Positions 1 to 14,200 of a stretch of 32,162 nucleotides of DNA are shown one piece after another; position 1 is the first letter of the stretch; every line of letters begins with the position of its first letter. The notes under the pieces were generated by a model that saw only the letters and a list, made by a program, of their open reading frames with translations, searched no databases and was not told the origin of the DNA. The translations under genes were made by a program, and so were the position numbers. This DNA comes from Clostridium sp. Marseille-P2415 (lineage in GTDB: Bacteria > Bacillota > Clostridia > Lachnospirales > Lachnospiraceae), in assembly GCF_900155545.1 (NCBI RefSeq), contig NZ_LT732526.1, forward strand, positions 2,064,128 to 2,096,289, written 5' to 3'.

Positions 1-29
1 TCCCTCTCAGACTGCAACTTAAGATTTTC

Positions 30-60
30 GGCCGGAATCCCAGACTCCGGCCAGTTTTTA
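30..60 (+). terminator. Intrinsic terminator for a plus-strand gene left of the window
   Basis: A 7-bp perfect stem (GGCCGGA at 30-36, TCCGGCC at 46-52) is followed by a run of five T at 55-59. The T-run is on the plus strand, so it ends a transcript entering from the left. It also lies just past the stop of the minus-strand HAD gene, but in that direction no T-run follows. Confidence 0.6.
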
Positions 61-65
61 CGGCA

Positions 66-413
66 TTATTTATTCCATGGCTTAAATGACCGTATCTTCG
101 CCAGCAAGGATGAAGCATCTCCATCAAAACAAATGGCACGGTCGTCAATGTAACAGATGGCCGGAAGCTTAACAGAAGATACCAGATCTACTTGAATGCC
201 ATACTTATCAAGATACTTCCGGATCGCCTCCGCTCCTTCTGCCTGTGCCGCCCTGGAAGATACGACCGTCACATAATATCCTGCTTTTCGTATTTCTCTT
301 ATGGCCTCTTTGATTCCTTCCACCGGCTCGTCCGGTATGACCTCAACTCCCTTCCAGCCGCTGACATAGCTGTGGATCACTCCGTCAAAATCAAATACCA
401 CTGTTCTTTTCAC
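66..413 (-). CDS. Small HAD-like hydrolase
   Basis: This 115-residue protein carries HAD-superfamily motif I near its N-terminus (VFDFDGVI, both aspartates present), a VVSSR segment resembling motif II, and a late YIDDRA segment resembling motif IV. It is much shorter than typical HAD phosphatases and lacks a full cap domain, like small HAD proteins found in phages and mobile elements. The start is GTG at 413, preceded by a good ribosome binding site (GAGGAGG, 7 nt away). It lies inside the proposed element that interrupts cotJC, so a phage-like cargo role is inferred. The substrate is unknown. The family call is fairly safe; the function is not. Confidence 0.7.
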   Translation of the reverse strand: MKRTVVFDFDGVIHSYVSGWKGVEVIPDEPVEGIKEAIREIRKAGYYVTVVSSRAAQAEGAEAIRKYLDKYGIQVDLVSSVKLPAICYIDDRAICFDGDASSLLAKIRSFKPWNK

Positions 414-466
414 GTTTTTCCCTCCTCGTATCAGTCTGTGCGGTAAAAGCTTCTGCCTGCCCTTTA

Positions 467-643
467 TTATGTCAATTCCTCCTCCCCATATTCTGAGGAT
501 ACCCGTTTAAATCCAATCGATTCCATCATCCTGTCCTGAATGATAACCGAGATTTCCCTGCGTTTTTCCTCAGGCAGAGAATCCATAAGAACATCTTTGC
601 CGTTAATTTCAATGTAATTTTCAATAATTGGCTTTTTGTTCAT
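467..643 (-). CDS. Small conserved protein of phage or mobile-element type
   Basis: This is a 58-residue protein starting at ATG 643, chosen because GGAGGAG lies 8 nt upstream; an in-frame start 36 nt earlier has no such site. The sequence contains YIEINGKDV and a charged helix (LPEEKRREISVIIQDR), a pattern I associate with small proteins found beside serine recombinases in clostridial phages and elements. It is divergent from the recombinase gene, about 90 bp away. No catalytic motif is seen and no function can be assigned. It is probably part of the same element as the recombinase. Confidence 0.55.
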   Translation of the reverse strand: MNKKPIIENYIEINGKDVLMDSLPEEKRREISVIIQDRMMESIGFKRVSSEYGEEELT

Positions 644-736
644 ATTTCCATCTCCTCCCCTGTAAAATGTATGTGACACAGATTGTACTTGTTTCCTGAT
701 ATTTCCTACCTAAAGCCCGGAAAGAAGTGATGTGAT

Positions 737-2191
737 ATGATAAAAAACAGCACACTGGAGATCGGAGCCGCATACATCCGCGTAAGCACAAACGACCAGA
801 CCGAGTTATCACCGGACGCCCAGCTTAGAGAAATCAAAAAGGCAGCCATGGCCGACGGCATTTTTATTCCCGAACAGTTTATTTTCATTGAAGAAAAAGG
901 CGTCAGCGGCCGCCGTGCGGACAATCGAAAGCAGTTTCAAAAGATGATATCCGTCGCAAAGTCCCAGCCCTCTCCCTTTCAGTACCTCTATCTCTGGAAA
1001 TTCTCCCGCTTCGCCCGCAATCAGGAAGAGAGCATGTTCTACAAAGGCATACTTCGGAAAAAGTGCGGAGTCACCATCAAAAGCGTTTCAGAGCCTATAA
1101 TGGAAGGCATGTTCGGCCGTCTTATTGAAAGCATTATCGAGTGGTTCGATGAATATTATTCCATCAACTTATCCGGGGAGGTCACCCGGGGCATGACGGA
1201 AAAGGCCCTGCGTGAAGGTTATCAGGCCCCCCCCTGCCTGGGTTACAATGCAGTCGGGGAAGGAAAGCCGTATCTGATCAACGAAGAAGAATATAAAATA
1301 GTGGAATACATACATAAATCCTATCATGACGGCATGGATGTATCCTCCATCGCAAGAAGCGCCAATGAACTGGGATTTCTCACCAGGAGAGGAAATCCCT
1401 TTGACCGCCGGGCCATCGAGCGCATATTAAAGAACCGGTTCTACAACGGGATCGTGACCTGGAAAGACATATCCTTTCAGGGCTCCCATGAGATCCGGGA
1501 TTCTGTAGCCTCAATCTTTGATGAAAACCAGAACCGTCTTAAGAGAGAATACAGGCCCCGAAACCGGCGGGAGGCATCCAGCTGCATGCACTGGGCCTCC
1601 GGCCTCTTAAAATGCGGATACTGCGGCGCAAGCCTGAGCTTTAATAAAACTGCGGACACAGACCGCCGCCCCTGCTATTTCCAGTGTTGGCGGTACACCA
1701 AAGGATTTCATGATGAATCCTGCAGCATCACGGTTAAACGGGTGGAAGAGCTTATCCTGGAATCACTTTACAAAGCGCTTGCTACCGAAGAAATCAGATA
1801 TGAATATGTGCGAAATTCCACTGACAGCCAGGCCGAAGAAGAAAATATCCAAAATGCCATAACAAAACTTATGGCTAAGAAACAGCGTGTAAGGGCTGCG
1901 TATGAAAATGGGATCGATACCCTGGAAGAATACCGGACTAACAGGGAACGACTTAAAAGCGAGCAAAACAGTCTGGAAAACCGGTTACAAAATCTTCTGG
2001 AGGGCAGGACCCGCGACAAAGCTCTTGATAAAACCGAGCTGATGACCAGGATAAAAAATGCCTATGACATCATTTCCGATCCGGGTATGAGCTGCGAAGC
2101 CAAGGGAAACGCCCTAAGGAGCATTGTGAAAAAAATTGTCTATGACAAACAGGAAAACAAGCTCAAATTCTTCTACTATATCCCAATATAA
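737..2191 (+). CDS. Large serine recombinase (site-specific integrase/excisionase)
   Basis: This 484-residue protein has the layout of large serine recombinases. The N-terminal resolvase domain (about 9-150) holds the YIRVSTNDQ motif with nucleophile Ser17, and KFSRFAR at about 88-94 matches the usual DRxSR segment. A recombinase domain follows (about 165-275), then a zinc ribbon (Cys293, Cys296, Cys313/317, Cys329) and a charged coiled coil (about 368-420). All parts appear intact, so it should be active. AAGAAGTG lies shortly upstream of ATG 737. The gene ends about 50 bp from the point where cotJC is cut, and recombinase genes normally lie beside their attachment site. By analogy with SpoIVCA (skin) and SprA (SPbeta) it may excise the element in the sporulating mother cell. 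That role is inference; no clear sigma-E or sigma-K promoter was recognised. Confidence 0.9.
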   Translation: MIKNSTLEIGAAYIRVSTNDQTELSPDAQLREIKKAAMADGIFIPEQFIFIEEKGVSGRRADNRKQFQKMISVAKSQPSPFQYLYLWKFSRFARNQEESMFYKGILRKKCGVTIKSVSEPIMEGMFGRLIESIIEWFDEYYSINLSGEVTRGMTEKALREGYQAPPCLGYNAVGEGKPYLINEEEYKIVEYIHKSYHDGMDVSSIARSANELGFLTRRGNPFDRRAIERILKNRFYNGIVTWKDISFQGSHEIRDSVASIFDENQNRLKREYRPRNRREASSCMHWASGLLKCGYCGASLSFNKTADTDRRPCYFQCWRYTKGFHDESCSITVKRVEELILESLYKALATEEIRYEYVRNSTDSQAEEENIQNAITKLMAKKQRVRAAYENGIDTLEEYRTNRERLKSEQNSLENRLQNLLEGRTRDKALDKTELMTRIKNAYDIISDPGMSCEAKGNALRSIVKKIVYDKQENKLKFFYYIPI

Positions 2192-2226
2192 TCAAACGGA
2201 AGGGCGTTTACCGACCTCCCATCCGG

Positions 2227-2340
2227 TTATCTGTTTTTGCAGTAAGGCCCACCATACTGACTCATAATAAATGAAGCAGCCTTGGGATTTGGAGTGGTAA
2301 TATTGACCGGATACTGTAATCTCTTTTCATATCTCCACAT
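2227..2340 (-). pseudogene. cotJC: 5' fragment of cotJC (spore coat manganese-catalase-like protein), interrupted
   Basis: This frame starts with the ATG of a TAATG overlap with the cotJB stop and encodes 37 residues. The first 32 match the CotJC N-terminus closely (MWRYEKRLQYPVNI, later SQYGGP). The last five (YCKNR) do not, and a stop follows where CotJC should continue with DGEL and a further 150 or so residues. All metal-binding residues of the catalase-like fold are missing. The break falls about 50 bp from the end of the convergent recombinase gene, so insertion of the element, not random decay, is the simplest cause. The retained part looks undamaged, which fits a gene that can be restored by excision. 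Confidence 0.85.
2236..2256. other. Predicted attachment-site junction between cotJC and the recombinase element
   Basis: Similarity to CotJC ends after the codons for Gly-Gly-Pro (2250-2245 on the minus strand); from 2244 leftwards the frame encodes unrelated residues and stops. The core of the recombination site should therefore lie around 2241-2250 (plus strand AGTAAGGCCC). The exact crossover bases cannot be fixed without the other end of the element, which lies outside the window. Confidence 0.6.
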
Positions 2341-2606
2341 TAGCCGCACACTCCTTCCCATGGCCATGGATCATTGATCCAGGTCCAGTAATTTTCATCC
2401 ATTACACCTTCAACCATCAGAGGACCGCACTGTTCCTCATAGGCCTCCATCGCCTGCTCCCGCAGATCTGATACGTAAAAGAAATAGTCCAGGGCTTCCC
2501 GATTATCCGGATGGGTATCAAGAAACAAAGCCACATCATCCATGGCAAAGCTGTATACATACACCTGCTGCAGCAAAACATCACAATTAATATTCGAATC
2601 TTTCAT
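2340..2606 (-). CDS. cotJB: Spore coat protein CotJB
   Basis: This 88-residue protein has the features of CotJB: a LYLDTHPDD-like segment (LFLDTHPDN), a conserved GPL, and the C-terminal WTWINDPWPWE. CotJB belongs to the CotJ coat complex made in the mother cell. The start is the ATG at 2606 within TGATG, where it overlaps the cotJA stop; a GGAGGGG site lies 8 nt upstream. Its own stop overlaps the cotJC start (TAATG). These overlaps imply translational coupling of the three genes. The gene is intact although the following cotJC is interrupted. Confidence 0.92.
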   Translation of the reverse strand: MKDSNINCDVLLQQVYVYSFAMDDVALFLDTHPDNREALDYFFYVSDLREQAMEAYEEQCGPLMVEGVMDENYWTWINDPWPWEGVCG

Positions 2607-3436
2607 CACCGGCACCCCTCCATAATAAATGGTTTATCCAGATCAGGGAAAATGGTTCCCCTGCCTAAGGCAGTTTCAACAGGATAGACCTGCTGCCATC
2701 GCTGCCATGGCACATAGGCCATTGCAACCGGAAATTTGTCAATATTTTCATAAGAGGCAGACGGTGCAGTCCTGGGGCATTTGGCTGGTGCAAAGCCCAT
2801 GGGCATTTCCGGCCGTTTCATCCGGCCTGGCCTCATTGACATATCCGGACGCCTCATAGGAACTTCTTCCTTCTTTCTTTCCGGACACTTCTCAGGCATT
2901 GATTTCTTTGCCCTTGCGGGGCATTTCATTGGAAATGATTCTATTGGCATTGTGGGGCATTTCATCGGAAATGACTCTGTTGGCATTGTGGGGCATTTCA
3001 TTGGGAATGATTCTGATGGCATTGTGGGGCATCTCATTGGAAATGATTCTTTTGGCATTGCGGGGCGTCTCATAGACATGGGAGCGGATTCCCTGGGCAT
3101 CGCAGGACACCTCATGGGTTTTGGAAATGTTGTCATATCTCTATCACTGTCAGGTAATGTCCCCATACGCTTTTCCGGACACTCCTTTGTATCTGAACCC
3201 GCCGTCTTTTTAGGCGGCATCCAGGGGCAGGGGCCCATTGGCATCTCCGGGTATTTCATGGACATAGGTTCAACTGACATACCCTCATTCTTAGCCGGAC
3301 CGGAACCAAGCGGCATATCGGGACGAATCACCGTACCGGGGCTCGCAGACATATCCAGCCCCATGGCAGGTTCCCAGCCGGATGTACCGGTACCGGCCAG
3401 GTACTCAGGACACCTTTGTTTTGTATAACACTCCAT
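2606..3436 (-). CDS. cotJA: CotJA-domain spore coat protein with a long Met/Pro/Cys repeat extension
   Basis: The last 46 or so residues (about 231-276) are a CotJA domain: MAYVPWQRW, then ALGRGTIFPDLDKPF. CotJA is normally only about 80 residues, whereas this protein has 276. The additional N-terminal part is low in complexity, rich in Met, Pro, Lys and Cys, and contains 12-residue tandem repeats of the type MKCPTMPxESFP (about residues 100-225, best at 122-175). No signal peptide or membrane segment is seen. The ATG at 3436 is chosen because AAAGGAGT lies just upstream; the in-frame ATG 21 nt earlier has no ribosome binding site. It is first in the cotJ gene set and 40 bp after the FAD/Rieske gene. 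Regular Cys and Lys spacing could allow cross-linking in the coat; that is inference. Confidence 0.85.
   Translation of the reverse strand: MECYTKQRCPEYLAGTGTSGWEPAMGLDMSASPGTVIRPDMPLGSGPAKNEGMSVEPMSMKYPEMPMGPCPWMPPKKTAGSDTKECPEKRMGTLPDSDRDMTTFPKPMRCPAMPRESAPMSMRRPAMPKESFPMRCPTMPSESFPMKCPTMPTESFPMKCPTMPIESFPMKCPARAKKSMPEKCPERKKEEVPMRRPDMSMRPGRMKRPEMPMGFAPAKCPRTAPSASYENIDKFPVAMAYVPWQRWQQVYPVETALGRGTIFPDLDKPFIMEGCR
2912..3070 (-). repeat. 36-nt in-frame tandem repeats within cotJA
   Basis: More than four copies of a 36-nt unit (plus strand starts CATTGTGGGGCATTTCATTG) lie head to tail, each encoding 12 residues. Several units contain the small palindrome CATTTC-attg-GAAATG. More diverged copies extend on both sides. 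Third-base and codon-level differences between copies show they are not all recent. Confidence 0.85.
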
Positions 3437-3476
3437 AGGATGTATGACTCCTTTCATTTTTGGGAAGTTTCTAATA

Positions 3477-4982: not shown

Positions 4983-6356
4983 TTGAGTTGGTTTCATAAA
5001 AAAACAGATCCGGTTCCCCCAGTCAAACCGGATATACAAAAGACTGAGGAGACAGCTTTAAAAAACAAGCTGGAACGGGATGCCTTTTATAAACATTTAA
5101 GCTCGGACTTAAACTCGGACGGCCGCGGAACCGTGTTAAAGCTATACATCGAAAATTTCAAACGGCTGAATCAGGTATTCGGTTATGATTACTGTGAAAA
5201 CCTTCTGGATCAGATCCTTACCTATTTAAAAGTACTGACCGGTAAAAATGTGTATCACTATATCGGAGTGGAATTTTTCATCATTCTGGATCAATATACG
5301 CAGGGGCAGGCCCTGGAGCTTGCCGAGGAGATCGCAGGAAAATTTGACCGTGCCTGGAAGGTCAATGGGACTGACTGTCTGTGTTCCGTTCAGATGGGCA
5401 TCTGCTCCTATCCCGGTCACGCAGCTGATCCGGACCAGATGTTAAAATGTTTAGACTTAGCCGTATTAAAAGCAGAGGATATCGGACCCAATCAGGCGGT
5501 TGTATTTGACAGCACCCTGCAGAAGCAGCTAAAACGCCGGCAGACCATTGCCCTGTACTTAAAGACCGCTCTGGAAAAAGAAGAAGTGGAAGTCCGATAC
5601 CGGCCTACGTTTCATACGGATAGCGGAACCTTTCCCAGAGCAGAACTCTATATGCGGATTTTCATCAAGGGACTTGGTTTGATCGGTGCAGGTGAGTTCC
5701 TGCCTGTGGCAGAGGATTCCGGACAGATCCGCGCCATTTTATACTATGCACTGGAAAAGGTGGCCCAATGCATCTCAGAATTGCTTGAAATGGGCAGGGA
5801 ATTTGATTCCATCGCCCTTCCCGTTTCCCCGGTTCTCTTTCTGCAGGAGGATTTTCCTGATGAAATGAAGAGAATCATGGCGTCCTATGGGATTCCAAAA
5901 GGCAAACTGGCCCTGGAATTCCAGGAAAGCGCACTGACCATGGCGTATTTAAATATCAATGTCATGCTTCAGCAACTGCAGGAAATGGGAGTGGAACTGA
6001 TTCTCAATGAATTCGGTTCCGGTTATTCCGGAATTTCCACCATCCTGGAACTTCCGGTGAATTCCTTAAAGCTTGAGCGCCTGTTCGTCTGGCAGCTTGA
6101 AACAAACCCGAAGTCCCGTTACGTCATGGAAGGTCTGGTCCGCATGGCAAAAGACTTAAATTTAAATATCATAGCAGAAGGTGTGGAGACGGAAAACCAG
6201 GTCCGGACCTTAACGGCCGCCGGCTGCAATTACCAGCAGGGATTTTACTATTCCCCCACTTTGGAAAAAGACACGCTTCTTAAAGTTATTGGCGCTTCCT
6301 TAACCGAATCCCTTCCGCTCCTGGCAGAAGAAAAAGAAAAAATGAGACGTACATAA
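4983..6356 (+). CDS. Degenerate GGDEF-EAL protein, probably a c-di-GMP receptor or regulator
   Basis: This soluble 457-residue protein has a GGDEF-like domain (about 45-175) followed by an EAL-like domain (about 185-435). The GGDEF motif is replaced by IGVEF (94-98), so cyclase activity is very unlikely. The EAL motif is ELYMR (221-225). The Asn that normally binds metal is Pro280, and the DD pair is Asn342-Glu343. Glu312, Lys363, Glu399 (AEGVE) and the QGF motif (419-421) remain. Loss of several metal ligands suggests no or weak phosphodiesterase activity. The start is TTG 4983, preceded by AGGAGG at 8 nt. No membrane or sensor domain is seen. Confidence 0.85.
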   Translation: MSWFHKKTDPVPPVKPDIQKTEETALKNKLERDAFYKHLSSDLNSDGRGTVLKLYIENFKRLNQVFGYDYCENLLDQILTYLKVLTGKNVYHYIGVEFFIILDQYTQGQALELAEEIAGKFDRAWKVNGTDCLCSVQMGICSYPGHAADPDQMLKCLDLAVLKAEDIGPNQAVVFDSTLQKQLKRRQTIALYLKTALEKEEVEVRYRPTFHTDSGTFPRAELYMRIFIKGLGLIGAGEFLPVAEDSGQIRAILYYALEKVAQCISELLEMGREFDSIALPVSPVLFLQEDFPDEMKRIMASYGIPKGKLALEFQESALTMAYLNINVMLQQLQEMGVELILNEFGSGYSGISTILELPVNSLKLERLFVWQLETNPKSRYVMEGLVRMAKDLNLNIIAEGVETENQVRTLTAAGCNYQQGFYYSPTLEKDTLLKVIGASLTESLPLLAEEKEKMRRT

Positions 6357-6399
6357 ACCGGAAGAAACACGCCCGGCTCGCTGCCCGCGTAAATGAAGT

Positions 6400-6446
6400 A
6401 AAAAAGCGCTTCCCGCCAGGTAATGGGCAGGAAACGCTTTTTTATT
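6400..6446. terminator. Bidirectional intrinsic terminator
   Basis: A long hairpin (AAAAAGCG and TTCCCGCC pairing with GGGCAGGAA and CGCTTTTTT) lies between the stop codons of two convergent genes. It has A-runs on one side and T-runs on the other, so it can serve both the plus-strand GGDEF-EAL gene and the minus-strand CBS gene. Confidence 0.85.
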
Positions 6447-6453
6447 TCAAATC

Positions 6454-6900
6454 TCAGTTACCGGCAACAGCCTGGCAGTTCACCACTTGCTGCTGCACCT
6501 CCTGGGACTTATTGTAGAAATACCGAATGATATCTTTACGGGTGATAATTCCAATAAAATTCTTCTGGTCATCCACCACCGGTACAAAATTCTGGTTTAA
6601 TGCCTTGTCAATCAAGTCCTCCATATTGGAATCCGCATATACGGGTCGGTTGTCTGACCTTCTGTCGATTGCCGCTGCCGTCACATGCTCCGCTTCCTTT
6701 AAGCTTAGGTTAAATTTGTTCTTGATCCCCCAAAGCATGTCCCCTTCGGTGATGGTTCCTACATATTTGCCCCGTCTGTTAATAACAGGTACTGCGGAGT
6801 ATTTATGATACTCCATCTTCTCAAGCGCCTGGCGCAGAGATTCATCCTCATAAATATAAGCCACCTCATTCTTAGGTGTTAAAAAAAACAATATGTTCAT
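6454..6900 (-). CDS. CBS-domain-pair protein
   Basis: This 148-residue protein consists of two CBS domains. The first contains SAVPVINRRGKYVGTITEGDML (in pieces: VPVIN, GTITEGD) and the second VPVVDDQ and GIITRKDIIRYF. CBS pairs bind adenosine nucleotides and act as sensors. No catalytic domain is attached, so it probably works through a partner. ATG 6900 is chosen because GGGGAG lies 7 nt upstream; the GTG two codons earlier is too close to that site. It appears to be transcribed alone, with a TATACT-like -10 upstream but no convincing -35. Confidence 0.85.
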   Translation of the reverse strand: MNILFFLTPKNEVAYIYEDESLRQALEKMEYHKYSAVPVINRRGKYVGTITEGDMLWGIKNKFNLSLKEAEHVTAAAIDRRSDNRPVYADSNMEDLIDKALNQNFVPVVDDQKNFIGIITRKDIIRYFYNKSQEVQQQVVNCQAVAGN

Positions 6901-7011
6901 AGCCACACTCCCCGTAGATTTTTCGGTTTTAGTATAGCAGATGACTCTTAATCACGTATGAACAATTTATTATTTTTTTATAACTTTTTTCCTGAGGTTT
7001 CCTGTTTTGGC

Positions 7012-7773
7012 TTACTGCATATGATCGAGCGGATCAATGGCTTTGTCTTCGTGCTTTAATTCAAAGAATACATTGGCACCTTCGACGGAATAATACTTGG
7101 TAGGCTCAGCCACATAGCCCAGAACCTGACCCTCTTTGACATACTCATTTTCCACGACCTGCAGTTCTTTTAACTGACCGCAGACGGCCGTATAATTGTT
7201 GCCCATATTTAAGACAACATAGCTTCCAATTTCTTCATTGGAACCGACTTCCTGCACTTTGGCATTGGCAGGCGCTACAACCGGAGTGCTTACATCTCCC
7301 TGAATGACTAAACCTGGATTGCATTTATACTGATCCAGAGTCGGGAAGTAAATCGTGGACTCCATGCTGTAGTCTAAAATAACATTTCCTTGTACTGGCC
7401 AGGCCATTCTGGTCGCATCGTTAAAATTAAGTACCAGAGACTTAGCCGAGCTCTTGTCTGTTCCGGCCTTCACCGCCGGCGCTTCTGTTTCCTGCTGTGC
7501 AGTGGCCTTCGGGGAATCTGCCTCCTGCATTTCCTCTTCCATATTCTGCGCTGCATTGGAATCCCCTGCAACGGCTACCTGTGTTTCCTGGGGGACGGTT
7601 TCTTCAGCAATCATATCGCCCTGATCCGGCACTTCCAGATAAGGACTCTCTCCTCCACCATTTCCTCTTTGAACGGTAATGACTCCTGCTGCAGCTACTA
7701 TAGTCAGCAGGCCTAGAACCAACAGGACAAGGAATACTTTATCCTTGAACAATTGACTTATTTTCTCCTTCAC
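7012..7773 (-). CDS. spoIIQ: SpoIIQ-like membrane-anchored M23 (LytM) family protein
   Basis: This protein of about 253 residues has one N-terminal membrane segment (hydrophobic stretch VFLVLLVLGLLTIVAAAGVI). A Glu/Ala-rich linker follows, then a C-terminal LytM/M23 domain (from about residue 130). The zinc ligands of active M23 peptidases are missing: the HxGxD position reads NPGLVI and the HLH position is FELKH, so it is probably not an enzyme. Its place directly after spoIID is typical of Clostridia and supports a SpoIIQ role, the forespore half of the zipper linking forespore to mother cell in engulfment. GTG 7773 is preferred because GAGGTG lies 6 nt upstream; the GTG at 7782 is part of that site. 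Confidence 0.75.
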   Translation of the reverse strand: MKEKISQLFKDKVFLVLLVLGLLTIVAAAGVITVQRGNGGGESPYLEVPDQGDMIAEETVPQETQVAVAGDSNAAQNMEEEMQEADSPKATAQQETEAPAVKAGTDKSSAKSLVLNFNDATRMAWPVQGNVILDYSMESTIYFPTLDQYKCNPGLVIQGDVSTPVVAPANAKVQEVGSNEEIGSYVVLNMGNNYTAVCGQLKELQVVENEYVKEGQVLGYVAEPTKYYSVEGANVFFELKHEDKAIDPLDHMQ

Positions 7774-7813
7774 GTTTATCACCTCGATAATATTCTTACC
7801 AAGAGTGAAAGAG

Positions 7814-8734
7814 TTATTCAGAAATCAAAACAATATTTTTATAAAAATAAGGGAGAATTTTTTCCGCCGTCCATCCCTCCTCTGCTTTGCATCTGGCCCC
7901 ATACTGGCTCATCCCGTATCCATGGCCGATTCCCTGGCAGACCGCACGGACTCCCCCTTCGTATTCCTCAAACCCATAGGACGGGGATGGAAGACCCAGT
8001 GCATACTGGATTTCTTCGCCTGTGTAAACCTTGGTTCCAATCTGGACCTGCCCCACATATCCGCCTTCATCCCGAAGAATGATCTGGCAGCTTTCCGGTA
8101 TCTGTTCTGCCGTTACCGGAACAGCCCCTGAAATCTGATTGATTTTACCGGCAAAATCTTCCCGGCTAAAGGCTGCCACCGTCAAGAATCCTTCGGCTTC
8201 CACATCTCTACTGCAGTCTGCGGACTGCAGGTAGGGATGGTTCTCATCACCGGCCCTTGTTTTCCCTGTGCTGGCTCTATGGAACAAGGGATCGATCAGC
8301 TTCCCGTCATACATCATGACTGTCCCAGCCGTAGAGCGGACCGCATCCTCCACCGCCTGGTAGCTGGCTATAAAAGACTCGCTTCCCCACAGCTTTTCCA
8401 TCTGTTTTTCCTCTAAATATTCCATGTGGAGCCCGGATTCCTTTATCTCATTCTGACCGTTCATTTTCCCGTATATGTATGTCCGGGCAATGATTGCCTG
8501 GGCTCTCAGTGCTTCCTTTCCGTAATCGGCCGGCATCTGCTTTGCCACCACTCCCGGCAGATATTCCTCCACATCCATATAAGACTGCCCGCCCTTCCGG
8601 TCCAGAATAATTTTCTTTCCGCTGGTCATGATAGGAACCTTTTTCTGCTCCTCAATTTTTCCGGTCCAGGCCAGGGTAATAATATATGGAAATAACAGCG
8701 CCAGAATGCACATCATAACTGCTTTTTTTACCAT
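7814..8734 (-). CDS. spoIID: Stage II sporulation protein D (peptidoglycan lytic transglycosylase)
   Basis: This 306-residue protein has an N-terminal membrane segment (about 5-25). The SpoIID core contains EYLPGVVAKQMP, the following KEALRAQAIIARTY, HRASTGKTR, and the C-terminal GIGHGYGMSQYGA. SpoIID cleaves glycan strands for engulfment together with SpoIIM and SpoIIP. The segment usually reading EMP is QMP here. Whether that Glu is the catalytic one cannot be decided from memory, and the downstream KEALRAQ Glu is kept. The start ATG 8734 has GGGGGTG 10 nt upstream. The spoIIQ-like gene follows after 40 bp and is probably co-transcribed. Confidence 0.9.
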   Translation of the reverse strand: MVKKAVMMCILALLFPYIITLAWTGKIEEQKKVPIMTSGKKIILDRKGGQSYMDVEEYLPGVVAKQMPADYGKEALRAQAIIARTYIYGKMNGQNEIKESGLHMEYLEEKQMEKLWGSESFIASYQAVEDAVRSTAGTVMMYDGKLIDPLFHRASTGKTRAGDENHPYLQSADCSRDVEAEGFLTVAAFSREDFAGKINQISGAVPVTAEQIPESCQIILRDEGGYVGQVQIGTKVYTGEEIQYALGLPSPSYGFEEYEGGVRAVCQGIGHGYGMSQYGARCKAEEGWTAEKILPYFYKNIVLISE

Positions 8735-8766
8735 TGCAAACCATCACCCCCTTGTTCAATATATGC

Positions 8767-8800
8767 AAAAAAACGCCCCGGAATCACTTCCGGAGCGTTT
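8767..8800 (-). terminator. Intrinsic terminator of glgP, overlapping its stop codon
   Basis: On the minus strand AACGCTCCGGAA, a four-base loop and TTCCGGGGCGTT form a strong hairpin followed by a run of T. The glgP stop codon (TGA) lies in the loop, so the last codons are part of the stem. Confidence 0.9.
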
Positions 8801-11246
8801 CCACCTTTACTTTTTCCAGGTGCCAGATATCCCTTACATATTCTAAAACGGTGCGGTCTGAAGTAAACTTGCCGCTGCACGCCACATTTAAAATGGCCGC
8901 CTTTGCCCACCCCGCTTCATCCCGGTACGCCTGACCGATCCGGCGCTGGGCCTCCGCATAGGAAGGAAAGTCCTTTAAAATAAAATAAGCATCCGCGCGG
9001 CCGCTGCTCTGGGTATTTAATAAGGAATTATAAATATCACGGAACAATTCCGGATCCTGTGGGGAATAGTAGCCGTTTATGAGCTGCATCAGTACCCTGC
9101 GGATCTCATCGCTGCTGTTGAAAATTTCCATGGGATTATAACCGCCTTCGTTCTCGTAACGGATCACCTCATCGGAAGACATGCCAAAAATAAAGGCATT
9201 TTCTTCTCCCACTTCCTCTACGATTTCCACATTGGCCCCATCCATGGTTCCAAGGGTCAGGGCACCGTTTAACATAAATTTCATATTTCCGGTCCCTGAG
9301 GCCTCCTTGCCGGCCGTGGAGATCTGTTCACTGACATCAGCCGCAGCAAAAATGATCTCCGCATTGGATACCTTGTAATCTTCTATGAAAACCACCCGGA
9401 TCTTACCGCCGATGCTTTTATCGTTATTAATGACATCAGCCACTGCATTGATCAGTTTGATGGTCAGCTTTGCACGCCTGTAGCCTGCTGCTGCCTTTGC
9501 TCCGAACAGAAAGGTCCGGGGAACCATATCAAGATTCGGATCATCCTTCAGCTGATTGTATAAATACATCACATGCAGGATATTCATCAGCTGCCGTTTA
9601 TATTCGTGAAGACGTTTGACCTGCACATCGAACATGGATCCGGGGTCTGTCTCAATGCCGTTATGCTCCTTAATATAGTCTGCAAGGCGCACCTTATTCC
9701 GGTATTTGATATCCATGAACTCCTGTTGGCACTTAGGGTCTTCTGCATAATCGGCCAGGCGGTGGATATGAGGCAGATCGGTAATCCAGCCATTGCCGAT
9801 TTTTTTCGTAACCCAGTCAGCTAACAGCGGATTTCCGTGAAGCAGGAACCGTCTCTGGGTGATGCCGTTGGTCTTGTTGTTGAATTTTTCCGGCATCATC
9901 TGGTAGAAGTCCTTTAATTCCTGGTTCTTCAAAATCCCGGTGTGGAGCCTGGCAACGCCGTTTACCGAAAAACCTCCCACAATTGCCAGGCAGGCCATTC
10001 GGACCTGCCCGTCATAAATGATGGACATCCTGCGGATTTTCTCCTGGTCTCCCGGATACATCTGCTGGATCTGCTGCTGGAACCGGCGGTTGATTTCCTC
10101 CACGATCTGATAGATTCTCGGAAGCAGCCTGGAGAAGAGCTCTACGGGCCATTTTTCCAAAGCTTCCGACATGATGGTGTGGTTGGTATAGGCACAGGTC
10201 CTGGTGGTTATTTCCCATGCTTCCTCCCAGCTCAAGCCGTAATCATCCAAAAGAATTCTCATAAGCTCCGGGACCGCTACCGTTGGATGGGTATCGTTTA
10301 ACTGGAAAACGGCCTTTTCGCAGAACTTATGTATATCGTCGTGTTTTTCCATGTACTTCATAACCGCTCTCTGCACGCTGGCGGAGATAAAGAAGTACTG
10401 CTGTTTTAAGCGGAGTTCTTTTCCTGCATCGTGGTTATCGTTGGGATAGAGGACTTCTACGATGGTCTTGGCCAGATTTTCCTGTTCCATGGCCTTCTGA
10501 TAGTCGCCCCGGTCAAAGGAATCAAGGTTTAAGGTATGAATGGCTTCCGCATCCCAGATGCGCAGGGTATTCACCACATTGTTCCCGTACCCCACGACCG
10601 GCATATCATAGGGAACGGCGCGGACGGACTGATAGCCCTCCTGTACAAACCGCTGTCTTCCATTTTCCCATACGGTGTTTACATAGCCGCCGAATTTTAC
10701 CTCGGTTGCATATTCCGCACGGCGGATTTCAAATGGATAACCATTCTGCAGCCAGTTATCCGGGATTTCGGTCTGGTAACCATTCTCAATTTTCTGCTTG
10801 AACATGCCATAACGGTAACGGATGCCGCAGCCATAGGCCGGATATCCCAACGTGGCCAGGGAGTCCAGGAAGCAGGCCGCCAGGCGGCCCAGCCCCCCGT
10901 TACCGAGAGCCGGGTCCGGCTCCTGGTCCTCAATGGCATTTAAGTCAAAGCCCAGCTCATCGAGAACTTCCCTTACCTCCTGCTGCGCCATAATGCTTAT
11001 GATGTTGTTGCCAAGGGCACGGCCCATCAGGAATTCCATGGATAAGTAGTACAGGGTTTTCACGTCCTGCTTCTCATACTCCTTATGGGTCGCGATCCAT
11101 TGGTCAATGATGACATCCTTTACCGCATACGCAACCGCCTGATACATCTGCTCCGGAGCCGCTTCCTCAACCGTCTTGCGGAACACGTTCTTCATATTGA
11201 ACAGAACGCTTTTCTTAAAGGTTTCCTTGTCAAATCCCATACTCAT
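8784..11246 (-). CDS. glgP: Glycogen/starch/alpha-glucan phosphorylase
   Basis: This 820-residue protein is of normal length for GT35 phosphorylases, which release glucose 1-phosphate from glycogen or maltodextrin. Landmarks are YYLSMEFLMGRAL near residue 70, ALGNGGLGRLAACFLDS near 115, and the PLP-binding SGTGNMKFMLNG with Lys656. The start ATG 11246 follows GGAGG by about 10 nt. It begins 21 nt after the ileS stop on the same strand, with no room for a terminator and no promoter seen, so it is probably read from the ileS T-box promoter. A strong terminator ends it. Confidence 0.95.
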   Translation of the reverse strand: MSMGFDKETFKKSVLFNMKNVFRKTVEEAAPEQMYQAVAYAVKDVIIDQWIATHKEYEKQDVKTLYYLSMEFLMGRALGNNIISIMAQQEVREVLDELGFDLNAIEDQEPDPALGNGGLGRLAACFLDSLATLGYPAYGCGIRYRYGMFKQKIENGYQTEIPDNWLQNGYPFEIRRAEYATEVKFGGYVNTVWENGRQRFVQEGYQSVRAVPYDMPVVGYGNNVVNTLRIWDAEAIHTLNLDSFDRGDYQKAMEQENLAKTIVEVLYPNDNHDAGKELRLKQQYFFISASVQRAVMKYMEKHDDIHKFCEKAVFQLNDTHPTVAVPELMRILLDDYGLSWEEAWEITTRTCAYTNHTIMSEALEKWPVELFSRLLPRIYQIVEEINRRFQQQIQQMYPGDQEKIRRMSIIYDGQVRMACLAIVGGFSVNGVARLHTGILKNQELKDFYQMMPEKFNNKTNGITQRRFLLHGNPLLADWVTKKIGNGWITDLPHIHRLADYAEDPKCQQEFMDIKYRNKVRLADYIKEHNGIETDPGSMFDVQVKRLHEYKRQLMNILHVMYLYNQLKDDPNLDMVPRTFLFGAKAAAGYRRAKLTIKLINAVADVINNDKSIGGKIRVVFIEDYKVSNAEIIFAAADVSEQISTAGKEASGTGNMKFMLNGALTLGTMDGANVEIVEEVGEENAFIFGMSSDEVIRYENEGGYNPMEIFNSSDEIRRVLMQLINGYYSPQDPELFRDIYNSLLNTQSSGRADAYFILKDFPSYAEAQRRIGQAYRDEAGWAKAAILNVACSGKFTSDRTVLEYVRDIWHLEKVKVETLRK

Positions 11247-11267
11247 TCCACTTAAGCCTCCTAACCG

Positions 11268-14200
11268 TTACTGAAACTTCTCCACGCCTAAGGTCACATT
11301 TTCGCCGTTGATGTTCCATTCTTTCACATATCCGGCCGTTCTTTCAAATGCAATGCTCTCCGCAAGTACTTCCCCTTTCACGTCTTCCTCGTGAGCCTTT
11401 AATATATCGGTTATTTTTTCATTGTCCCTGCAGGATACCAGAATGTGGTCTGTTACCTCAAAGCCCGCTTCCTTGCGCATGGTCTGAATCTTGCTGATCA
11501 GCTCCCGGACAAAGCCTTCTTCCACAAGCTCTGTTGTCAGATTGGTATCCAGCACAACGGTAATCGTATTGTCTCCCTCGGATACATAGCCCTCTATCTG
11601 TGCGGTATCGATCAGTAAGTCTTCCCTGGTGAGCACAACTTCTGTTCCGTCAAATAAAAAGGTAAGGGCGCCTTTTTCATTCAGGGTGTCCATCGCCTCG
11701 TTGCCGTTAATCTCTCCCAGGGCTTTTTTGATGCTGCCTAACTGCTTGCCGTATTTCGGTCCCACGGTCTTTAACTGGGGTTTGAAGCTGTAGGATGTGA
11801 AATCTCTCACATCATCGGTAAATACCACCTTTTTCACGTTTAACTCTTCCTCAATGATCTCCTGATAGAACACAGGAAGGGCATGAGGAGCCTTTACGAA
11901 CATCTGGCCGATCGGCTGGCGGTTCTTTAAATTGGCCGTATTTCTGGCTGCACGGCCCATGACTACGATTTTTAAAACCTCATCCATATCGCTTTCCAGC
12001 TGCTTATCAATATGGGCCTCATTTGCAGCCGGATAATCGCATAAATGGATGCTCTCCGGTGCGGTCTTATCCACGCTGCATACCATGTTTTGATAAATCT
12101 GCTCGGTCATGAACGGAATAAACGGAGCAGCCGCCTTGCTTACCGTAACGAGAGCGGTATACAAAGTCATATAAGCGTTAATCTTATCCTGCTCCATGCC
12201 CTTTGCCCAGAAACGCTCTCTGCTTCTGCGGACATACCAGTTACTCATATCGTCAACAAATTCCTGAAGCGACCGTGCTGCTTCCGGAATCTGGTATCCG
12301 TCCAGGCAGGCATCCACGTCTTTGACTAAGGTATTTAACTTGGATAGAAGCCATTTATCCATAACCGGAAGCTTCCCGTATTCCAATGTATATTTCGTCG
12401 GGTCAAATTCATCAATATTCGCATAAAGCACAAAGAATGCATAGGTATTCCAAAGCGTGCCCATAAATTTACGCTGGCCTTCCATTACAGCTTTCCCGTG
12501 AAAGCGGTTCGGCAGCCAGGGCGCACTGTTGACATAGAAATACCAGCGGATCGCATCTGCTCCGTAGGTTTCCAGCGCTTCAAACGGGTCTACCGCATTT
12601 CCCTTGGATTTGCTCATCTTCTGCCCGTTCTCATCCTGGACATGTCCTAAAACAATTACGTTCTTATAAGGCGCCTTGTTGAAAATAAGGGTTGAAATGG
12701 CTAGGAGGGAGTAAAACCATCCTCTCGTCTGGTCCACAGCCTCGGAAATAAAGTTTGCCGGGAACTGCTGCTCGAACAGTTCTTTGTTTTCGAATGGATA
12801 GTGGTGCTGCGCAAATGGCATGGAACCGGAATCAAACCAGCAGTCGATCACCTCCGGAACCCGCTTCATCTGCTTACCGCACTCCGGACAGGTAATGGTC
12901 ACCGCATCGATATAGGGACGGTGGAGCTCAATATCGTCCGGGCAATTGCGGGACATGCTCTTTAATTCCTCTATGCTTCCGATGGGGTGCTGGTGTCCGC
13001 ATTCACATTCCCACACGTTAAGAGGAGTACCCCAGTAACGGTTTCTGCTGATTCCCCAGTCCTGAATATTCTCCAGCCAGTCACCGAAGCGGCCTTTTCC
13101 GATGCTTTCCGGAATCCAGTTGATGGTGTTGTTGTTACGGATCATATCTTCTTTAACTGCTGTCATCTTGATGAACCAGGATTCTCTTGCATAGTAGATC
13201 AGAGGAGTATCACATCTCCAGCAGTGTGGATAGCTGTGCTCAAACACAGGTGCGGAGAATAAAAGTCCTCTCTCTTCCAGATCCTTTAATATCATTGGGT
13301 CGGCCTTCTTACAGGAAATTCCTGCCCACTTGGTTTCTTTGGTCATCTCTCCGGCTGCATTTACCAGCTGTATAAATGGGAGACCGTATTTATTGCATAC
13401 CCTCAAGTCATCCTCACCAAAGGCCGGAGCGTTATGAACCACACCGGTACCGTCGGTGAGCGTAACATAATGGTCACAGATTACATAATGGGCTTTCTTT
13501 TTCGGTTCTACAAAATCAAATAACGGCTCATATTCCTTATATTCCAGGTCCTTACCGACGTATTTCTCTAATACGGTATAGTCTCCTTCCAGAACCTTTT
13601 CACACAGAGCTTCTGCAAGATAATAGGTATAGTCTCCGTTTTGTACCTTCACATACGTCTCATCCGGATTTACGCAGAGAGCTACATTGGAAGGCAGGGT
13701 CCATGGCGTTGTTGTCCATGCCAGAATATAGGCATCTTCTCCTTTTACCTTGAACCGTACAATGGCAGAACGTTCTTTTACATCCTTGTATCCCTGAGCC
13801 ACCTCATGACTGGATAACGGGGTACCGCAGCGCGGACAGTAGGGAACGATCTTAAAGCCCTTATACAAAAGGCTCTTTTCCCATATCTGCTTTAAAGCCC
13901 ACCATTCGGATTCAATAAAATCATTCTCATAAGTTACATATGGGTCATCCATGTCGGCCCAGAAGCCTACGGTCTTTGAAAAGTCCTCCCACATGCCCTT
14001 GTATTTCCAGACGCTTTCCTTACAATACTTGATAAATGGCTCCAGACCGTACTGCTCAATCTGTTCCTTGCCGTCAAGGCCCAGCATCTTTTCTACTTCC
14101 AGCTCGACCGGAAGTCCGTGGGTATCCCAGCCGGCCTTACGGGGAACGTCATATCCTTTCATTGTGCGGTATCTTGGAATCATATCCTTGATGACGCGGG

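Follow-up and report, generated by a model that had tools for sequence, protein, structure and literature searches.

Two parts of cotJC and the element between them

The window analysed here, a stretch of 32,162 nucleotides from Clostridium sp. Marseille-P2415 (contig NZ_LT732526.1, positions 2,064,128 to 2,096,289), opens within a small serine-recombinase element and continues into a cotJ operon in which the spore-coat gene cotJC is represented by its 5' half (Table 1). Read on the minus strand from window position 2339, the gene runs as MWRYEKRLQYPVNITTPNPKAASFIMSQYGGP, followed by YCKNR and a stop, and it is coupled to cotJB, the stop of which adjoins the cotJC start. A sequence-only reading of this DNA had described a frame matching the CotJC N-terminus for 32 residues before breaking off, close to the 3' end of an uninterrupted serine recombinase gene; both observations were confirmed, with the recombinase stop about 55 bp from the core shared by the two cotJC halves. 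As expected of so short a piece, the PF05067 score of the 5' half falls below the curated cut-off, and we regard the match as beyond chance because a 3' part of cotJC, encoded on that strand too, has the breakpoint core in common with it.

As the same reading had suggested, the remaining codons (30-202) are present on the minus strand before the start of the window (C9:2056582-2057100), beginning at the GGxCC core and followed by DGE; its caveat that no 3' fragment might lie nearby proved false. Joined at the shared GGxCC core, the halves give an intact 202-codon CotJC without a stop (...SFIMSQYGGPDGEMGASMRYLSQRY...). A PF05067 search of the genome (G000) returned seven matches at E up to 10, of which four count, the other three having E values of at least 0.5. 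The four comprise a full-length cotJC in a second cotJ operon (C9:1927274), the 3' fragment (profile positions 30-198, C9:2056636) and the 5' fragment (profile positions 1-32), found twice (C9:2063590 and C9:2066372).

Within one contig (G000:C9:2057093-2063590), the two cotJC halves are separated by what the assembly gives as two identical tandem copies of the element, each of 3,249 bp, forming an attL junction (...ccatctGGCCCtccttag), a middle attP junction between the copies (...gcagtaaGGCCCtccttag) and an attR junction (...gcagtaaGGCCCaccatac). The tandem arrangement may be biological. The window itself begins directly after a scaffold N, and the 2,781 bases that precede this N match window positions 1-2781 exactly. 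Because three other N-joins in the assembly (L269, L271) carry the same kind of duplicate, 2.6-2.7 kb long, we read the repeat across the N as an assembly artefact and rejected a third copy of the element.

The recombinase open reading frame (ORF) is uninterrupted and carries the Pfam Resolvase, Recombinase and Zn-ribbon domains; the protein falls within PHROGs integrase family phrog_95 (4.5e-85), and its profile match to the YokA/SprA structures (E 1.6e-08) holds at the level of the large serine recombinase (LSR) superfamily only. Ser17 of its RVST motif, which we take to be the catalytic serine, is invariant across 10 aligned recombinases. Beyond the proteins listed in Table 1, the element encodes a 229-amino-acid (aa) PdaC/DUF3298 protein on the plus strand and a small acidic protein adjoining the cotJC 3' half. 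The HAD-like protein matched PHROGs families of accessory or unknown function, phrog_23773 (2.4e-17) and phrog_1238 of the moron category (3.5e-16). No phage structural genes were recognised, a PHROGs search of five proteins of this element yielding no structural family above chance and, as its sole tail match, one to the recombinase at E 0.26.

Upstream in the operon, CotJA has an N-terminal extension of about 240 residues with Met/Pro-rich 12-residue repeats (36-bp units), its CotJA domain being confined to the residues given in Table 1.

Table 1. Features at the split cotJC gene, in window positions
Feature	Position	Strand	Evidence or remark
Right part of the intervening element	1..2245	.	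remainder outside the window
HAD-like hydrolase, 115 aa, accessory cargo	66..413	-	Pfam and NCBIfam scores below curated cut-offs
Acidic protein, 58 aa, divergent from the recombinase; candidate directionality factor	467..643	-	relatives in genus elements
Promoter-like block GAAACARGTACAATCYRTGTCACATACATTTTA before the 58-aa gene	662..695	-	SpoIIID-box-like part and sigma-E-like -10 CATACATT
Large serine recombinase, 484 aa	737..2191	+	PF00239 1.1e-23, PF07508 2.6e-11, PF13408 3.1e-07
cotJC 5' half (first 32 codons), with five non-cotJC codons and a stop after it	2226..2339	-	PF05067 positions 1-32, 24.4 bits
attR core region GGxGGxCC (Gly-Gly-Pro codons)	2244..2255	-	shared core at 2246-2250
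cotJB	2340..2615	-	Pfam CotJB PF12652, 9.7e-29
cotJA with long repetitive N-terminal extension	2606..3457	-	PF11007 at residues 243-277, 4.3e-19

Conservation within and beyond the genus

The comparison covered a genus set of 25 genomes including that of the window. The recombinase has named matches in Lacrimispora xylanisolvens, L. amygdalina and L. celerecrescens, among others, and we accordingly take the set as Lacrimispora and assign the window to this genus or its immediate neighbourhood. The cotJC 5' half, the recombinase and the 3' part at the same codon were found on one contig in 15 of the 25 genomes, the 15 elements measuring 2,470-5,058 bp. All 15 carry an uninterrupted recombinase ORF of 484-508 aa and a protein of the 58-aa type, and the further recurring ORF clusters are the PdaC/DUF3298 protein (14/15), the small acidic protein and the HAD protein (4/15). 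Recombinase matches extended to 18 genomes, 16 of them at 61-100% identity. Two further genomes, G001 and G016, hold a 3' half behind an element-type junction and yielded no 5' half; the recombinase is on another contig in G001 and was not found in G016. Comparison with intact relatives, a check put forward by the sequence-only reading, revealed an uninterrupted and precise empty site at this position (site 1) in five genomes (G002, G005, G010, G019 and G020). The gene of G007 is also joined, carrying a single additional base at a contig end rich in errors, and G014 and G017 each show a single cotJC.

The palindrome axis of the reconstructed attP is identical in all 15 elements and separates the first base of codon 31 (Gly) from the second; we predict crossover at the GG of this codon. 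Tested against shuffled arms, the attP symmetry of 12 of the 15 elements was matched by fewer than 25 of 500 shuffles. In G012 the codon just beyond this axis, towards the 5' half, is Leu instead of Pro, which would follow if those bases were carried off with the element.

In the 12 genomes with an unsplit 3' half (G004, G006 and G015, where it is split again, were left out), the joined cotJC frame is open over 202-203 aa in every case, and all 12 DNA sequences are distinct. The pairwise ratio of nonsynonymous to synonymous differences (pN/pS) was 0.063 for the 5' half and 0.076 for the 3' half, with pS about 0.6. The recombinase gave 0.280 (n = 15) and the PdaC/DUF3298 protein 0.300 (n = 13), the host gene halves being more constrained than the recombinase that separates them. 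A stray cotJC 3' half beside the intact gene of G002 has four stops, which indicates that decay would show. Of the concern that a second full-length cotJC might accompany a decayed split copy, only the first part was borne out: a full-length copy was found in 24 of the 25 genomes, G011 having the split copy as the only one found, and the split copy is not decayed.

Constraint of the 3' half, together with an ATG-started ORF of 167 aa within it in the window genome, could also fit a 3' half that is translated alone from its internal start and works without excision. We consider this very improbable, as constraint on the 5' half is just as strong, all 12 genomes keep the frame across the join, and of the relatives displayed G018 alone retains the AGGAGG that precedes the internal ATG in G000.

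Inheritance of the element was examined through recombinase distances, which correlated with those of the unlinked full-length cotJC paralogue across 14 genomes (Spearman 0.445, 31 of 5000 permutations as high), and more closely with G006 removed (Spearman 0.625, 0 of 5000). The recombinase and cotJC trees both contain the groups G012+G022+G023 and G003+G013+G021+G024. G006 carries a differing 5.1-kb element with a recombinase 61% identical; its ORFs were listed, the PHROGs search having covered the proteins of the window element.

Beyond the genus, a search of genome_contigs with a profile of ten recombinases detected 112 relatives, and 80 loci were retained. In 62 of these loci a cotJC half broken at that same codon directly adjoins the 3' end of the recombinase (37 with the 5' half, 25 with the 3' half), and two of the 18 loci without one lie within 100 bases of a contig end. 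The corresponding search of viral_contigs gave 154 relatives and 80 kept loci, 18 of which, counted from the listing, hold a cotJC piece. In whole records, the halves lie about 3 kb apart in G030 and G051, 36-41 kb apart in G036, G037, G046 and the virus record G058, and 87 kb apart in G025, Hungatella hathewayi DSM 13479. Given this range up to prophage-sized inserts, the Lacrimispora form looks like its reduced end.

The larger inserts, and the full-length second cotJC, would suit an ordinary mobile element or degenerate prophage lodged in a dispensable paralogue, with the gene broken and excision incidental. This seems improbable, as the two halves are open and strongly constrained in all 12 genomes at a pS of about 0.6, the stray half of G002 has four stops, all 15 genus elements are 2.5-5.1 kb long and have an uninterrupted recombinase, and G011 yielded no cotJC besides the split one.

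Further splits were found within the same gene, a second near codon 65/66 (G004, G005, G006, G015, G027, G045 and G060) and a third near codon 135 (G042, G043 and G045, probably also G031 and G033). Clostridium sp. MCC353 (G027, L250) has cotJC in three pieces on one contig, and in Anaerovorax odorimutans DSM 5092 (G045; L247, L248 and L249) four pieces are spread over three contigs, the record set of this species having no further cotJC match at E up to 0.01. The recurrent cut positions lie near conserved, probably metal-binding motifs of CotJC. These sequence comparisons point to cotJC as an integration target common to a broad range of clostridial serine recombinases, with three separate conserved sites.

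A candidate directionality factor and the proposed timing of excision

The 58-aa protein is our candidate for a recombination directionality factor (RDF). Its relatives were detected by tblastn in 44 of 160 recombinase loci, and the window protein itself had no Pfam, NCBIfam or PHROGs match. The predicted model (predicted local distance difference test score, pLDDT, 85.5) consists of a strand pair and one helix, and comparison of this fold with Protein Data Bank (PDB) chains gave no useful match.

The promoter-like block in front of its gene, with its SpoIIID-box-like part and sigma-E-like -10, is kept in 14 of the 15 genus elements; in G006 it has diverged and only its two ends are kept. Across the wider loci, the pattern AACARGTAC-N9-13-CATA occurred in 19 of 32 mutually dissimilar upstream regions of homologues, compared with 0 in 200 shuffle sets. 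A longer related pattern had eight matches in the window genome and none for a reversed control; removal of N-join and tandem duplicates leaves four distinct sites, in the cotJC, feoB and PRC-barrel elements and in one polysaccharide-type cluster. The last of these (G000:C9:1599932 and 1602558, L271) is a single site duplicated at an N-join, with no recombinase seen nearby. The likeness of the block to mother-cell promoters, with a SpoIIID box and a CATA-type -10, is suggestive only. The genome contains spoIIID and a split sigK-like gene.

Skin of C. difficile offers a precedent: it needs a small RDF, CD1234 (72 aa, isoelectric point 5.5), expressed under sigma-E and SpoIIID with a box KRTAACARK (PMC5025042), and the small acidic RDF gene described there has a parallel in the 58-aa gene here. 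Because of this analogy, the identity of the target gene and the promoter-like block before the candidate RDF, sporulation control is our best reading of when the element would leave. Overall, we propose that a minimal serine-recombinase intervening element interrupts cotJC at codon 31/32 and is excised to rebuild the gene, with timing in the mother cell, a reading to which we give a probability of roughly 0.83; removal of the element to rebuild cotJC is very probable, and sporulation is the most likely occasion. The sequence-only reading is thereby borne out on what the locus contains and very probably on its function. The recombinase would recombine attL with attR at the Gly-Gly-Pro codons, releasing the element as a circle, or as circles from the tandem pair, and rebuilding a continuous 202-codon cotJC behind cotJA and cotJB. 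The 58-aa protein would trigger excision as directionality factor, its gene being switched on from the promoter-like block by sigma-E with SpoIIID, or by sigma-K, and the event would take place in the terminal mother cell.

Several observations weigh against this proposal. As a full-length paralogue exists, the split cotJC may be partly redundant, and since the HAD protein belongs to PHROGs families, a phage origin of some of the cargo is likely. Inheritance is, judging from the different element in G006, not purely vertical, and G000 is placed differently in the recombinase and cotJC trees, the former having weak support. The attP symmetry is weak in three of the 15 elements (40, 69 and 99 of 500 shuffles as high), and 13 of the 32 dissimilar upstream regions are without the AACARGTAC-N9-13-CATA pattern. 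Judged by eye against the consensus, the block appears to fit no classical sigma-E or sigma-K promoter fully, and neither sequence nor structure comparison detected a relation of the 58-aa protein to a known RDF. Homologues of this protein also occur beside a serine integrase in IMG/VR loci L195-L207, several with a similar AACAAGTAC...CATA block, and no cotJC piece was seen in the stretches of these phage contigs. Finally, we infer excision, its timing and the role of the 58-aa protein from sequence.

Other genes of the genome are split in a comparable manner. A sigK-like gene (L260, G000:C9:831000-845500) lies in two pieces about 11.5 kb apart, covering profile positions 24-115 and 109-226, each below the model's whole-length cut-off; its insert holds the large and small subunits of a NiFe hydrogenase, HypF, other maturation-like genes and a serine recombinase of its own. 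Another small serine-recombinase element interrupts the G domain of feoB (L269, G000:C8:570000-584000, about 8600-12370), and the feoB halves, ...TGMNQHTG and GNWPGKTV..., read on in frame. The feoB recombinase occurs in 13 of the 25 genus genomes (two partial matches), 12 of which have the 5' half of feoB next to it, and constraint is evident in the feoB parts compared, with pN/pS values of 0.128 (n = 12) and 0.095 (n = 6). A PRC-barrel gene, which we take to be of the ylmC/ymxH type, followed by a gene we take to be nrdR, is split after MRISE, the fifth codon (L270, G000:C9:670000-684000, about 5208-10060). Its recombinase has one near relative among the 25 genomes (85%, G008) and shares 51-52% identity with the recombinases that other species have at the second cotJC site. 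In the window genome the promoter-like pattern precedes a small ORF in both the feoB and the PRC-barrel element. Of the 13 feoB loci, over the stretches covered, G002 alone displayed the pattern, and eight loci that include both feoB parts lacked it.

Occurrence of the pattern on the feoB and PRC-barrel elements would be compatible with excision outside sporulation control, the element leaving and re-entering at random or under some other stress, in the manner of a phase-variation switch. To our knowledge, FeoB is not a sporulation protein. The yin element of C. botulinum is reported as excised at all time points (PMC10747680). We judge such a switch unlikely, if somewhat less so than a merely broken gene, given that cotJC is a spore-coat gene, that the sigK-like gene of this genome is also split, and that the block resembles a SpoIIID box with a CATA-type -10. 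If sporulation does control excision, a tentative extension is that Lacrimispora possesses a set of minimal 'DNA introns' (about 2-5 kb, with one recombinase, a small switch protein and a mother-cell-type promoter) that keep several genes split in the germ line, namely cotJC, feoB, the ylmC/ymxH-type PRC-barrel gene and, via a larger element, the sigK-like gene, all rebuilt together in the terminal mother cell, with cotJC of other Clostridia in three or four pieces. We hold this wider scheme to be possible and rather doubtful.

Relation to known gene-intervening elements

With skin, gin, vfbin and yin the cotJC element shares insertion in the coding region of a sporulation gene, an LSR and a shared core with a frame-restoring join. 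Other gene-intervening elements are generally tens of kb in size. In the accessible portions of the literature, the spore-former genes described as undergoing programmed reconstitution are sigK, spsM, spoVFB, gerE and yabG, one sigK insert measuring 22 kb; we did not meet cotJC as a target in the literature on programmed gene reconstitution. Skin in sigK (skinCd of C. difficile, with LSR CD1231 and RDF CD1234, and skin of B. subtilis) is likewise an LSR element that splits a mother-cell gene and rebuilds it by precise excision; unlike skin, the element described here targets cotJC rather than sigK, is about 3 kb long and has no recognised phage structural genes, the split sigK-like gene of the genome being separate. 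SPbeta in spsM and vfbin in spoVFB are similarly cases of a sporulation gene rebuilt by LSR excision; we take SPbeta to be a prophage with another target and integrase, and vfbin to have another target.

The gin element in gerE of Bacillus cereus ATCC10987 is also non-phage, occupies a late sporulation gene and combines an LSR with a small extra factor, GirX (PMC5595907); unlike gin, with its 28.6 kb and three recombinases, the cotJC element has about 3 kb and one recombinase and is conserved across the genus. Also clostridial is yin in yabG of Clostridium botulinum V73, with a sporulation gene as target and a recombinase beside the 5' half in similar orientation (PMC10747680), described as prophage-like and as unique to one strain, whereas the cotJC element is genus-wide and minimal. 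The prophage phi027 of C. difficile R20291 lies next to a Mn-catalase/CotJC-homologous gene, which the accessible text presents as an adjacent bacterial gene, describing neither a split nor a sporulation switch (PMC11222575).

The element therefore appears to work like skin, gin or yin, its novelty lying in the cotJC target, the very small size and the genus-wide conservation. Compact elements of this kind, and their recombinases with defined att sites, may be useful as tools. Ultimately, an element of about 3 kb that is kept across most of a genus is well suited to testing how mobile elements turn into developmental switches.

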